Assembly: GCA_016180645.1 (NCBI GenBank)
Contig: JACPAV010000004.1
Span: 157,544-221,543 of the forward strand
Direction of reading: 5' to 3'
DNA: 64,000 bases
Source of the DNA: Nitrospirota bacterium
Lineage (GTDB): Bacteria; JACPQY01
In this document: one piece after another, positions 10,156-13,418 of the stretch
Numbering within the stretch: position 1 is the first letter of the stretch
Layout of the letters: each line of letters begins with the position of its first letter
The notes under the pieces: model-generated
Database searches by the model: none
Told to the model about the DNA's origin: nothing
The model's input: only the letters and a program-made list of their open reading frames with translations
Program-made: the position numbers and the translations under genes

Positions 10156-11253
10156 TCAGTGCTTGACGACACCTTCAACGAGAAGGTCGGTTCCGATCCG
10201 GCGGATACGGAGCGACGACACGCAAAGCGCCTCGGCGATCTTGTGGACGCCGCGGCCGGAGATCATGGGAATGGAGTTTCGACCGCCTATGATTTTCGGC
10301 GCGAAGAAGAAGCGAACTTCGTCGACGGCTCCGAGGTCCACCGCGGTTCCGGCGACCAAGCTTCCGCCTTCGATGAGGAGCCGGCCGACGCCCATCTTTG
10401 CAAGCTTTTGGAGCAGAACGTTCATGTCGACGAGATCGCCTCTCTTCGGGATAACGAGGACAACTACACCCCGCTCCAAATAGGGCTGGTGCCGATCCGG
10501 AGCGGTGACCGAAGTGGCCAGCAGCGTCGAGCCCGGAGGACCGGAGTTGAAAATCTTCGAAGTGAGCGGGGCTCGAAGATAGGTATCGATCACCACCCGG
10601 AGGGGAAGCCTCTTGACCGGCACCTCTCGCGGGAGGAGAAGGGGATTGTCCCGTTCGACGGTGCCGTGTCCGACCAGCACTGCGTCGCACTCGGCCCGAA
10701 GACGGTGCGCCCATCTCCGCGCGGCGGGGGAAGTAATCCACTTCGAGTCGCCCGTGTGGGTTGCGATCTTGCCGTCGAGAGTTGCCGCAAGCTTGAGAAT
10801 CACATACGGACGGTTTCGGCGCACGCGCATCGAAAAATCGGAGATCAAGTCTTCACATTCCTTGCGGAGCACGCCTGAGATCACGCGAACCTTGCGTCGA
10901 AGAGTTTCGACGCCGCGGCCTCGCGAATCCGGGTGGGGGTCCGTCGCCCCGATGCAAACTGTTCTAACGCCCGATTGGAGGATGGCTTCGGTACAGGCTT
11001 CGGTTCGTCCCCAGCGCGAGCACGGTTCCAGCGTCACGTAGAGCGTTGCGCCCTTGGCCCGCGGTCCGGCTTGGTGGAGCGCCATGCCCTCCGCGTGCGG
11101 CTCGCCGGGGCGACGATGATATCCCTCGCCGACGATGCGGCCTTGCTTGACCACCACCGCCCCCACCGGCGGATTCGGCGCCGCTGTTGGCCGGCCTCGC
11201 AGCGCCAGCGCGATCGCCCGCCGCATGAAAGTCTCGTGCTGCGATGAGGTCAT
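10156..11253 (-). CDS. ribD: Bifunctional riboflavin deaminase/reductase RibD
   Basis: RibD carries out the second and third committed steps of riboflavin synthesis: deamination of the diaminopyrimidine, then NADPH reduction of the ribose side chain. The N-terminal cytidine-deaminase-like domain (about 1-145) has the zinc motif HAE in GEPHAEGMAL and the PC-x-C pattern in LEPCSRWGRTEACTEAIL. The C-terminal reductase domain starts near RPYVILKLAATLDGKIAT, with ITSPAARRWAHRLRAECDAVLVG and LLIEGGSLVAGT following. At 365 residues it has the usual full length. It is followed by ribE; 118 bases upstream lies the unusual three-gene cassette. Confidence 0.96.
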   Translation of the reverse strand: MTSSQHETFMRRAIALALRGRPTAAPNPPVGAVVVKQGRIVGEGYHRRPGEPHAEGMALHQAGPRAKGATLYVTLEPCSRWGRTEACTEAILQSGVRTVCIGATDPHPDSRGRGVETLRRKVRVISGVLRKECEDLISDFSMRVRRNRPYVILKLAATLDGKIATHTGDSKWITSPAARRWAHRLRAECDAVLVGHGTVERDNPLLLPREVPVKRLPLRVVIDTYLRAPLTSKIFNSGPPGSTLLATSVTAPDRHQPYLERGVVVLVIPKRGDLVDMNVLLQKLAKMGVGRLLIEGGSLVAGTAVDLGAVDEVRFFFAPKIIGGRNSIPMISGRGVHKIAEALCVSSLRIRRIGTDLLVEGVVKH

Positions 11254-11371
11254 TGTGATCGTCTTGGCAAAGGCAGCGTTGCAGTTTCCTCCAGAGGGCT
11301 GCGGGTAGTATCTCCGCGGTCACCTTCCTGCTTCCACTCTCCCGGCGGAAGAGCCGAAGAGTGGGTCGCGC

Positions 11372-11800
11372 TCAATGGGGCCGTGTGTCCTTGGTCCCGG
11401 GGGGCTGAGGGCTAGGCTTCGAGGAAAGGACCGAGACTACGTGCTGCGCAACATGATTCCCATTGAGCAGCAGCTCGAAAACTAGGTCTCCGGCGCCGTT
11501 GATAGGGATTTGCTCCAACCGAACCGCAACTCGATGTCGTAGGTTTCCCTGACGAAACTTGAGATTGGCAGGAAATTCTTGCTTCTGGATACCCGGTCCC
11601 ATGACTCGTAGGATGACTTGCCAGTCCTCGTTCCAATCGGCTTGGCCAATACGCCAGAGTGAAAGAGCCGCACATTTTGGAACAATTGTCGGAAAGGCAT
11701 CTGCACCAAGTTCCTCGAGAATATTGAATACGCTTGCTTGATTTGTTGCCTGATCAATAGATACGCTTTCACACACCACAAAGAATTCCAGCTCAGGCAT
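11372..11800 (-). CDS. DUF6941-like hypothetical protein (cassette gene 3)
   Basis: This 142-residue protein starts MPELEFFVVCESVSIDQATN and has a compact all-beta look, with short hydrophobic strands separated by charged turns. The N-terminal pattern (ESVSIDQATNQASVFNILEEL) resembles proteins annotated DUF6941, which have no known function. ATG 11800 overlaps the preceding stop codon as TGATG; GTG 11803 is possible. It is the last of three translationally coupled genes (12836 to 11372). Base composition is more AT-rich than the flanking ribD and nrdR. The family match is from memory of the pattern. Confidence 0.6.
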   Translation of the reverse strand: MPELEFFVVCESVSIDQATNQASVFNILEELGADAFPTIVPKCAALSLWRIGQADWNEDWQVILRVMGPGIQKQEFPANLKFRQGNLRHRVAVRLEQIPINGAGDLVFELLLNGNHVAQHVVSVLSSKPSPQPPGTKDTRPH

Positions 11801-12300
11801 CACGCTGCCAACCTAAAGTGGGTGCTCGTGTACCCCACGCGTGGCACGGTGGTCGCACTCGCCTCGCGGGCTTTTCCTGGGTGCCGCGGCATGGGGGCAC
11901 GAAGGCAGTACCTCTTTGCAGTGGTTTCAGTCAGTAGCCTATTGCGCTCTCGCAACATCATTACCGCGACCCGTGGGCTCATGGGCAACTCGATGGTATG
12001 GGTAGAACCTAGTTCATTCAAGAAAGAGTAGATAAAATCGCCAGGAAGTGATGCGAGGGCAACCGCGAGCCCGCAAAGCGCCACGTCTCCTGGGAACCTC
12101 CGGCCCCGGATGAACGATGCTGACAACGTAGAGACGAAGTCCCGGACGTCGGCTTCTTGAAGCGAACCCGATTTCCAGGCAGAGCGAACCGATAGGACTT
12201 CAGCCCGACGCTTGAGAATGACGATCAAAGCGTCAGATGTGCCGACCGCAAGGCATGTTTCAGCGAGATCGTCGCTATTCAGCTCATCGAGCACGGTCAT
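11800..12300 (-). CDS. Unknown helical protein (cassette gene 2)
   Basis: This 166-residue protein is predicted mostly helical (MTVLDELNSDDLAETCLAVG, then VALCGLAVALASLPGDFIYS). I recognise no family. It has no signal peptide; a mildly hydrophobic segment near residues 85-105 is too polar at its edges to be a clear membrane span. It is locked between its neighbours by stop-start overlaps: ATGA with the upstream papain-like gene and TGATG with the downstream gene. It is therefore almost certainly translated and works with them. The C-terminus is basic and proline-containing. Confidence 0.6.
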   Translation of the reverse strand: MTVLDELNSDDLAETCLAVGTSDALIVILKRRAEVLSVRSAWKSGSLQEADVRDFVSTLSASFIRGRRFPGDVALCGLAVALASLPGDFIYSFLNELGSTHTIELPMSPRVAVMMLRERNRLLTETTAKRYCLRAPMPRHPGKAREASATTVPRVGYTSTHFRLAA

Positions 12301-12836
12301 GGTCTATCGGTCCAGAATGAGATGTCAGGATCGAATGTCCAAGGAACGTCTTTGAAATGGTGGAGTACTTCACCATACGAATCACTCCATTTGCTCAGGA
12401 TCCAGGGGATTGGTCCTGCCGCAGGACTCCCTGTAAGACTCAAGTGTTCTATATTGCTCACCATTCCTACATGGAGTGCCAGCCGGAATGCCGGGACATA
12501 GTATATGACCAGATCGCCCGATCTGGGTTCCTCATCGGCCTTGAGCATTCTGTAACCATCCTCCCTAAGGACGAGTTTCCACAACTCATCATCTCCCTCA
12601 TCATCTCCATAGATGGCGGTTCTTCGACTGGCCCAGACATGCCCTGCGCAATTGTATCCGCCGCATGCCGGTTTCCGCTCCCGCCATCTCGGATGATCCC
12701 GGAGAAGCTTGTTGAAGAGATTCAACGATCTTGAGTCTGGACCGGGCGCTTGGGAGTTTGGAATGTCGGAGCCCATGGTTGTTTGTAGCTCAATAGAAAC
12801 TCGCGGAGTCCCTAAGAGCCTCAGTTCCTCGAACAT
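12297..12836 (-). CDS. Papain-fold (DUF7689/NlpC-P60-like) protein (cassette gene 1)
   Basis: In this 179-residue protein the order of motifs fits a papain-like cysteine hydrolase: Cys63 in YNCAGHVW at the start of a helix, SGDLVIYYVP near 106-115, His122 in ALHVGMVSN, and SKWSDSYGEVLHHFKDVPW, which resembles the polar residue region after the catalytic His. This layout is shared by NlpC/P60, CHAP and DUF7689-type proteins that cut peptide or amide bonds. No signal peptide is seen, so the target is probably cytoplasmic or the protein is delivered in another way. First gene of the three-gene cassette. Activity is inferred from motif order only. Confidence 0.6.
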   Translation of the reverse strand: MFEELRLLGTPRVSIELQTTMGSDIPNSQAPGPDSRSLNLFNKLLRDHPRWRERKPACGGYNCAGHVWASRRTAIYGDDEGDDELWKLVLREDGYRMLKADEEPRSGDLVIYYVPAFRLALHVGMVSNIEHLSLTGSPAAGPIPWILSKWSDSYGEVLHHFKDVPWTFDPDISFWTDRP

Positions 12837-12959
12837 CTTGGCTGAATTCTACATCAAAGAGGTCGAGGTGTCACAGAAATTTCGAAGTCAACGTTGATTG
12901 TTGACAGACCTACCTCCGAGCCATTGAACACTCAACCTTGACCCCATCGGAGGGTGGGG

Positions 12960-13418
12960 TCAGTTGTGCCGTTCTCGCACCAAGCCGCGGACTTCGTCCA
13001 TGAACTGGGCGACGTCTTTGAACTCGCGGTAGACGGAGGCGAAGCGGACGTACGCCACCTGGTCCCAATCCTTGAGGGCGGCCATGACTTTTTCGCCGAT
13101 CACGGAGCTCGGGATCTCCTTGCCCATTTCCTGAAGCTGGGCCTCCAACCGTTCGATGAAATCCTCGATCTTCTGGAGCGGAACCGGGCGCTTCTGGACC
13201 GCCTTCCGAATGCTCTGCATGATCTTATCTCGCGAATACGTTTCCTGCCGGCCGTCTTTCTTCACGATCACCGGAAGGGAGTCCTCCACCTGCTCGTACG
13301 TGGTGAATCGCTTGCTGCACTGGATGCAGCTTCGCCGCCGCCGGATGGCCGCATTGTCCTGGCTGAGCCGGGAGTCGGTGACTTTATTCTTGATCGATCC
13401 GCAATAGGGACATTTCAT
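12960..13418 (-). CDS. nrdR: Transcriptional repressor NrdR
   Basis: NrdR senses ATP/dATP and represses ribonucleotide reductase genes. The 152-residue protein has the zinc ribbon (MKCPYCGSIKNKVTDSR and RRRSCIQCSKRFTTYE, four Cys) followed by an ATP-cone domain from about residue 50 (PVIVKKDGRQETYSRDKIMQ, with AYVRFASVYREFKDVAQF near the end). Length and motifs match the family throughout. It lies 15 bases after glyA on the same strand, a common arrangement. No ribonucleotide reductase gene is in the window. Confidence 0.96.
   Translation of the reverse strand: MKCPYCGSIKNKVTDSRLSQDNAAIRRRRSCIQCSKRFTTYEQVEDSLPVIVKKDGRQETYSRDKIMQSIRKAVQKRPVPLQKIEDFIERLEAQLQEMGKEIPSSVIGEKVMAALKDWDQVAYVRFASVYREFKDVAQFMDEVRGLVRERHN

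Follow-up and report, generated by a model that had tools for sequence, protein, structure and literature searches.

The window analysed here is a stretch of 64,000 nucleotides from a Nitrospirota bacterium, and the subject of this report is a cassette of three genes that lies in it between nrdR and ribD. The cassette and its surroundings are organized as follows.

12297..12836, minus strand: gene 1, putative divergent NlpC/P60-CHAP-type cysteine hydrolase, 179 amino acids
11800..12300, minus strand: gene 2, predicted all-helical partner protein, 166 amino acids
11372..11800, minus strand: gene 3, DUF6941 protein (PF22091), 142 amino acids from the ATG at 11800
12960..13418, minus strand: nrdR, upstream flank of the cassette (Pfam)
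10156..11253, minus strand: ribD, downstream flank of the cassette (Pfam)
12837..12959, minus strand: spacer between nrdR and the cassette, 123 bases
11254..11371, minus strand: spacer between the cassette and ribD, 118 bases

The open reading frames were found where an earlier reading of the DNA letters (hereafter the sequence-only reading) had placed them, and on the same strand. The tight coupling that it described is real: genes 1 and 2 share a 4-base overlap (ATGA) and genes 2 and 3 a 1-base overlap (TGATG), with the ATG at 11800 preferred over the GTG at 11803 as the start of gene 3 according to the aligned homologues. Pfam confirmed the identities of glyA, nrdR, ribD and ribE in the window and placed gene 3 in PF22091 with 38.5 bits, compared to a gathering cut-off of 27, in agreement with the DUF6941-like nature first assigned to it. 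Profiles built solely from homologues elsewhere retrieved the window proteins of genes 1, 2 and 3 at E values of 1.6e-50, 6.7e-21 and 1.6e-30, respectively, and therefore the three proteins are real. Signals of transcription at the ends of the cassette were not above chance. The nrdR spacer contained a single promoter-like match (GTGACA-17-TAGAAT, 12874-12846), when 1.0 was expected by chance in the scanned region. A hairpin in the ribD spacer was no more stable than those of shuffled sequences, hairpins at the cassette ends did not exceed chance, and there were no Rfam matches at the cassette.

The sequence-only reading had considered that the three genes might never co-occur elsewhere and proposed to look for them in other genomes and in defence islands. 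The order of hydrolase, helical protein and DUF6941 protein recurred at 15 further loci (L084, L085, L087-L098 and L118), one of which (L093) lies in a defence island, and two-gene versions without DUF6941 occurred at L086 and L120, both from planctomycetes. There were thus 18 distinct loci including the window, among which genes 1 and 2 stood together in all 18 and the DUF6941 gene was present in 16. All of the loci were reached via gene 1, and the scan pattern (YNC.G..) restricts which loci could be found. The first recurrence was in a genome of another phylum, where a hydrolase of 29% identity precedes a second gene that looked unrelated and a DUF6941 gene, with 4-base overlaps. As the profile was extended, it detected a virus contig (L084) and then 14 loci in genomes (L085-L098, confirmed out of 18 stretches that fitted the pattern); 13 of the 14 have all three genes and L086 has the first two. 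Whole-genome searches added L118, a three-gene locus in the same genome as L086, and the two-gene locus L120. Duplicates were not counted: L119 is L087, L107-L117 are earlier loci, and L095 is a locus first seen as L074. The junctions between the genes ranged from -44 to +24 bases at the recurring loci, with starts chosen by us. When each locus was left out of the profiles in turn, these still retrieved gene 1 (16/16), gene 2 (16/16) and gene 3 (15/15) in that locus, the weakest at an E value of 3.8e-7. At L087 (3767-4313), gene 1 is broken by a frameshift into two overlapping frames, which represents a decayed copy or a sequencing error.

Other searches yielded little. A single-sequence search with gene 1 of 60 genomes besides that of the window gave two weak matches, both due to chance, and tblastn found no gene 1 in phages or, at that sensitivity, in 72,556 plasmids. 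Genes 2 and 3 had one weak and unconvincing match each in plasmids. The first scan of genome contigs and one viral scan were negative for gene 1, a third viral scan returned L084 again, and the genome of L076 (the same as L079) had no match to a two-row profile. Three candidates were rejected: L075 was antisense to a reverse transcriptase-like gene, L080 was an ordinary NlpC/P60 protein, and L082 looked like a chance match. A wider relative was seen outside any cassette at L081 (454-2382, minus strand), where an open frame of 643 amino acids contains an internal gene 1-like domain (YNCWGLTFFPRR).

We predict that gene 1 encodes a divergent cysteine hydrolase of the NlpC/P60-CHAP superfamily, with Cys63 as the putative nucleophile and His122 as its candidate histidine. 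The fold is best known for cell-wall lysis. The papain-like character proposed by the sequence-only reading holds at the level of the superfamily and does not extend to a family, as the window protein passed no Pfam cut-off. Nearly all of the structural neighbours of the model, which had a predicted local distance difference test (pLDDT) score of 88, were NlpC/P60, CHAP or related amidases. The best of them had a Z of 6.4 (root-mean-square deviation 3.5, 104 aligned), which is below the mark of 8, and the best E value in Foldseek was 0.06. An alignment by hhalign with an NlpC/P60 protein (90.6%) placed Cys63 on the cysteine of DCSG and His122 on the histidine of HxG. The superfamily has a (D/N)C-x-G nucleophile motif at the start of a helix and H-x-G on a later strand; gene 1 has both, with Cys63 in the modelled helix 63-68 and His122 in the strand 119-130. 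Sixteen residues were invariant in all 18 hydrolases (Y61, N62, C63, G65, A69, R71, R72, D93, D108, Y112, H122, S148, G155, E156, H159 and V164), including the polar candidates for the third member of the triad, S148, E156 and H159. Weak Pfam matches among 16 members were to CHAP in eight (best E value 3.4e-4), NLPC_P60 in five (best 1e-3) and DUF7689 in two, and among sequences of solved structures the gene 1 profile touched MepS at an E value of 0.66.

Gene 1 differs from NlpC/P60 and CHAP proteins (PF00877 and PF05257) in several respects, although the C-x-G and H-x-G motifs align. It has NC rather than DC in the nucleophile motif and additional invariant residues (RR, S148 and GE..H), it falls under the Pfam cut-offs, and it is accompanied by the helical partner at all 18 loci. 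In addition, a hydropathy analysis of 16 aligned hydrolases found no signal peptide-like or transmembrane-like stretch in any of them. The protein appears cytosolic and, because an export signal is lacking, peptidoglycan is an improbable target. A second set of relatives, the longer proteins of L121-L133 in the order of L085, occurs in open frames of 264-422 amino acids with an NCHGWVF motif and N-terminal stretches that look hydrophobic by eye, sometimes as tandem pairs (L132 and L133). These planctomycete NCHG-type proteins and DUF7689 (PF24738), the latter judged from its weak matches in two of the 16 members, share NC-x-G, H-x-G, SKWG and a further H with gene 1. However, the former are longer, and no gene 2 or DUF6941 gene was seen within 1.5 kb of them.

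The sequence-only reading described the second gene as a helical protein of no recognizable kind and proposed structure prediction. The model indeed comprises eight helices over residues 1-128, with pLDDT of about 96 over 1-120 and a low-confidence C-terminal tail, and Foldseek gave no significant fold match (best E value 0.98). The nearest solved shapes were VHS/ENTH and HEAT-like solenoids, the best with a Z of 7.1 (root-mean-square deviation 3.1, 104 aligned), and many helical folds were tied. A fold search among viral proteins returned none, and nothing convincing was found by Pfam among 16 gene 2 members or, for genes 2 and 3, among sequences of solved structures. As for gene 3, it is a member of DUF6941 by score, whereas 40 other DUF6941 neighbourhoods contained no homologue of gene 1 or gene 2.

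The distribution of the cassette is rare and patchy. Record titles name eight phyla (Planctomycetota, Nitrospirota, Myxococcota, Bacteroidota, Chloroflexota, Cyanobacteriota, Rokuibacteriota and Pseudomonadota), in addition to the virus contig. Among 386 diverse genomes, the cassette type of the protein was found in the window genome only, and the other match (G180) was the relative of 643 amino acids noted above. The cassette type was present in 1 of 195 genomes of the phylum of G029 and in 3 of 376 genomes of the order of L085; in that order 13 genomes matched, and the remaining 10 carried longer relatives with neither gene 2 nor gene 3 close by. The trees of all three genes had the same split into two types, A (including the window) and B, with support of 100% for genes 2 and 3 and 94% for gene 1. 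Myxococcota were present in both types, and one planctomycete genome carried a locus of each (L086 and L118). The pairwise protein distances of the three genes were also correlated across 14 loci (Mantel r 0.65-0.82, a level reached by no more than 1 of 9999 permutations), partly as a result of the two deep types. The shared split and the correlated distances suggest that the three genes travel together.

The genome G001, of another genus, was the single relative from the same family in the comparison; it had the order glyA-nrdR-ribD-ribE without the cassette. The sequence-only reading had left room for an ancestral separation of nrdR and ribD; in this relative, the stop codon of nrdR and the ATG of ribD are 35 bases apart. 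NrdR and RibD of the window are 80% and 59% identical to those of G001. This absence, together with the recurring order, upholds the suggestion of an inserted-looking and self-contained unit. The cassette was also said to be richer in A+T than its surroundings, and it is: its G+C content is 54.1%, compared to 60.3% for the window, and equally low values occurred in 17 of 626 sliding segments of the same length. The G+C content at third codon positions was 53%, 64% and 50% in genes 1, 2 and 3, compared to 80% in glyA, 81% in nrdR, 73% in ribD and 74% in ribE. However, composition alone is no proof of foreign origin, because dnaN of the same window is as rich in A+T (G+C content 51.6%, and 62% at third positions). 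We found no convincing target duplication in the form of direct repeats at the cassette ends and no mobility gene beside the cassette in the window. Either the cassette was inserted in this lineage or it was lost in G001, and with one relative parsimony alone cannot choose. We favour insertion because of the compact order in G001, the composition and the mobile homologues.

The neighbourhoods of the other copies show where the cassette is carried. On the virus contig L084, it lies six bases behind a tyrosine integrase, and at L089 it is found among genes for phage replication protein O, RusA, a Sak4-like protein, an exonuclease and an HNH protein. TraG_N and an integrase of an integrative conjugative element adjoin the cassette at L097, and some 600 bases downstream of it lies PDC-S11, a PADLOC candidate. 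The cyanobacterial (CCP3) island at L093 (1-10731) surrounds it with HsdS, a PtuA-like AAA_15 ATPase, two Panacea antitoxin-like genes, GmrSD_N and an LmuA-like protein. It is adjoined by a Schlafen AlbA_2 protein at L090 and by a maturase fragment at L088, and at L091 a PIN_10 gene and a DUF433 gene that scored below threshold lie at a distance of about 4 kb. Other copies lie near genes for tRNA-synt_2 and 3-dehydroquinate synthase (L085), histidyl-tRNA synthetase (L094) or aldehyde dehydrogenase (L098). One flank gene each was scanned at L086, L092, L095 and L096, with nothing telling, and the neighbourhoods of L087, L118 and L120 were judged by eye only. Of the 17 loci, 4 had a clear mobile or defence context and a further 3 a suggestive one, as counted without matched control neighbourhoods. 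Of the defence, toxin-immunity or stress roles proposed by the sequence-only reading, the context leans to conflict or mobile cargo. We also noticed that genes resembling aminoacyl-tRNA synthetases adjoin four cassettes, at L085 (1909-3090) and L094 (1538-2959) by Pfam and at L087 (2559-3638) and L120 (2051-3397) by eye; the sites of L085 and L087 may go back to a single ancestral one.

We suggest, with a probability of about 0.45, that the cassette is a conflict module that moves laterally and is translationally coupled, with phages or other mobile DNA as its most likely targets. In such a module, the hydrolase would act as the effector and would cleave or transacylate a target inside the cell other than peptidoglycan. 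Gene 2, from the general shape of its model (a VHS/ENTH or HEAT-type solenoid), may bind the hydrolase and either restrain it or lead it to its target, and DUF6941 would serve as a dispensable sensor or accessory. Infection or invasion would release the brake, and the hydrolase would then halt the cell or the invader. This division into effector, partner and accessory is supported because genes 1 and 2 stay together while DUF6941 is missing in the two planctomycete loci. It is tentatively conceivable, as a more specific proposal, that the cassette represents an unnamed immune system of at least nine lineages, carried on phage-like and conjugative elements, in which a solenoid-held NlpC/P60-CHAP hydrolase is freed by infection to act on a cytosolic target of the host or the phage, with a first role for DUF6941.

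Several points weigh against the conflict module. The defence role, for which the odds are somewhat short of even, is drawn from genomic context, and many loci adjoin housekeeping genes or genes of no recognized kind. The conserved unit lacks an NTPase, a nuclease and a classical sensor. Outside the cassette, DUF6941 had no recurring neighbour family and no conflict signature (68 of 74 listed neighbour open reading frames were scanned, six short ones being excluded). The first two genes of the window have no family name in Pfam, PADLOC, NCBIfam or PHROGs. Moreover, the trees by themselves are no proof of lateral transfer, as there were 8 label changes against a minimum of 7.

The cassette may instead be a toxin-antitoxin addiction module, with the hydrolase acting as a toxin inside the cell and the helical protein as its antidote; it would persist because it stabilizes the carrier element, and defence would only be a side effect. 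A small overlapping pair in which the enzyme lies beside its partner at every locus (all reached via gene 1) would fit, as would the copies that lie near phage genes, behind an integrase or within an integrative conjugative element, and the copy number of one in 10 of 11 genomes and two in the other. However, two-gene systems do not usually come with a third gene, as 16 of the 18 loci do, many copies stand alone between chromosomal genes, and gene 1 was absent from the plasmids at the sensitivity of tblastn. We regard this explanation as rather unlikely.

A non-conflict enzyme unit is similarly improbable. Here, an amidase, deamidase or acyltransferase of the cytosol would modify some component of the cell, aided by an adaptor and DUF6941, and the unit would owe its spread to a benefit in certain habitats. 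The structural neighbours of gene 1 include glutathionylspermidine amidase, a metabolic amidase that is cytosolic, and the copies at L085, L094 and L098 are near housekeeping genes. On the other hand, the unit is very patchy, it has no consistent metabolic neighbour, and its settings include phages, an integrative conjugative element and a defence island.

Much less probable is a secreted interbacterial toxin with immunity proteins, like the NlpC/P60 effectors of the type VI secretion system. Tae3 and a papain-like toxin/immunity pair were among the structural neighbours of gene 1, and the Tae3-Tai3 pair resembles the cassette in that a partner gene accompanies a small enzyme from this superfamily; the cassette differs from that pair in its third gene. 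However, the hydrolases show no evidence of export, their length of 150-190 amino acids leaves no room for a delivery domain, and no secretion genes were recognized among the scanned flank genes. A neutral passenger left behind by a mobile element, with no present function here, would agree with the surroundings free of a mobility gene, repeat or target duplication, but is hardly credible given three intact frames and the retention of all invariant residues at gene 1 identities of 25-50%.

For the conflict module, known systems offer partial parallels. Peptidase effectors with small adaptors are known in prokaryotic conflict systems which, as far as the consulted sections of the sources describe them, have NTPases or other components at their core that the cassette lacks (PMC7159879, PMC8195603). 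Among these, the NTP-dependent systems coupled to effector-associated domains (EADs) join peptidase-type effectors to small non-catalytic adaptors in many lineages (Kaur et al. 2020, PMC7159879). The cassette resembles them, within what those sections cover, in its peptidase-type effector, small partner and wide spread; it differs in lacking an NTPase, vWA and MoxR and in having no adaptor shared by two of its proteins. PADLOC 2.0.0 returned no family for any of the three window proteins, NCBIfam named none of them, and PHROGs matched gene 1 only, at a meaningless E value of 0.42. We found no description of the three-gene unit in the literature, judged by titles and the starts of abstracts, and none of DUF6941 or DUF7689. 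It seems that the unit has not yet been named.

The cassette is a small, defined and testable unit: it has three genes and only a few invariant active-site residues, and it occurs in two types in hosts that are known by name. Should it prove to protect against phage, the intracellular immune effectors would gain an enzyme class and DUF6941 a first functional handle; the family is present in 44 of the 386 diverse genomes, including that of the window. In five genomes (G047, G079, G221, G322 and G350), open frames of 286-294 amino acids had two DUF6941 matches each and are tandem-domain proteins.
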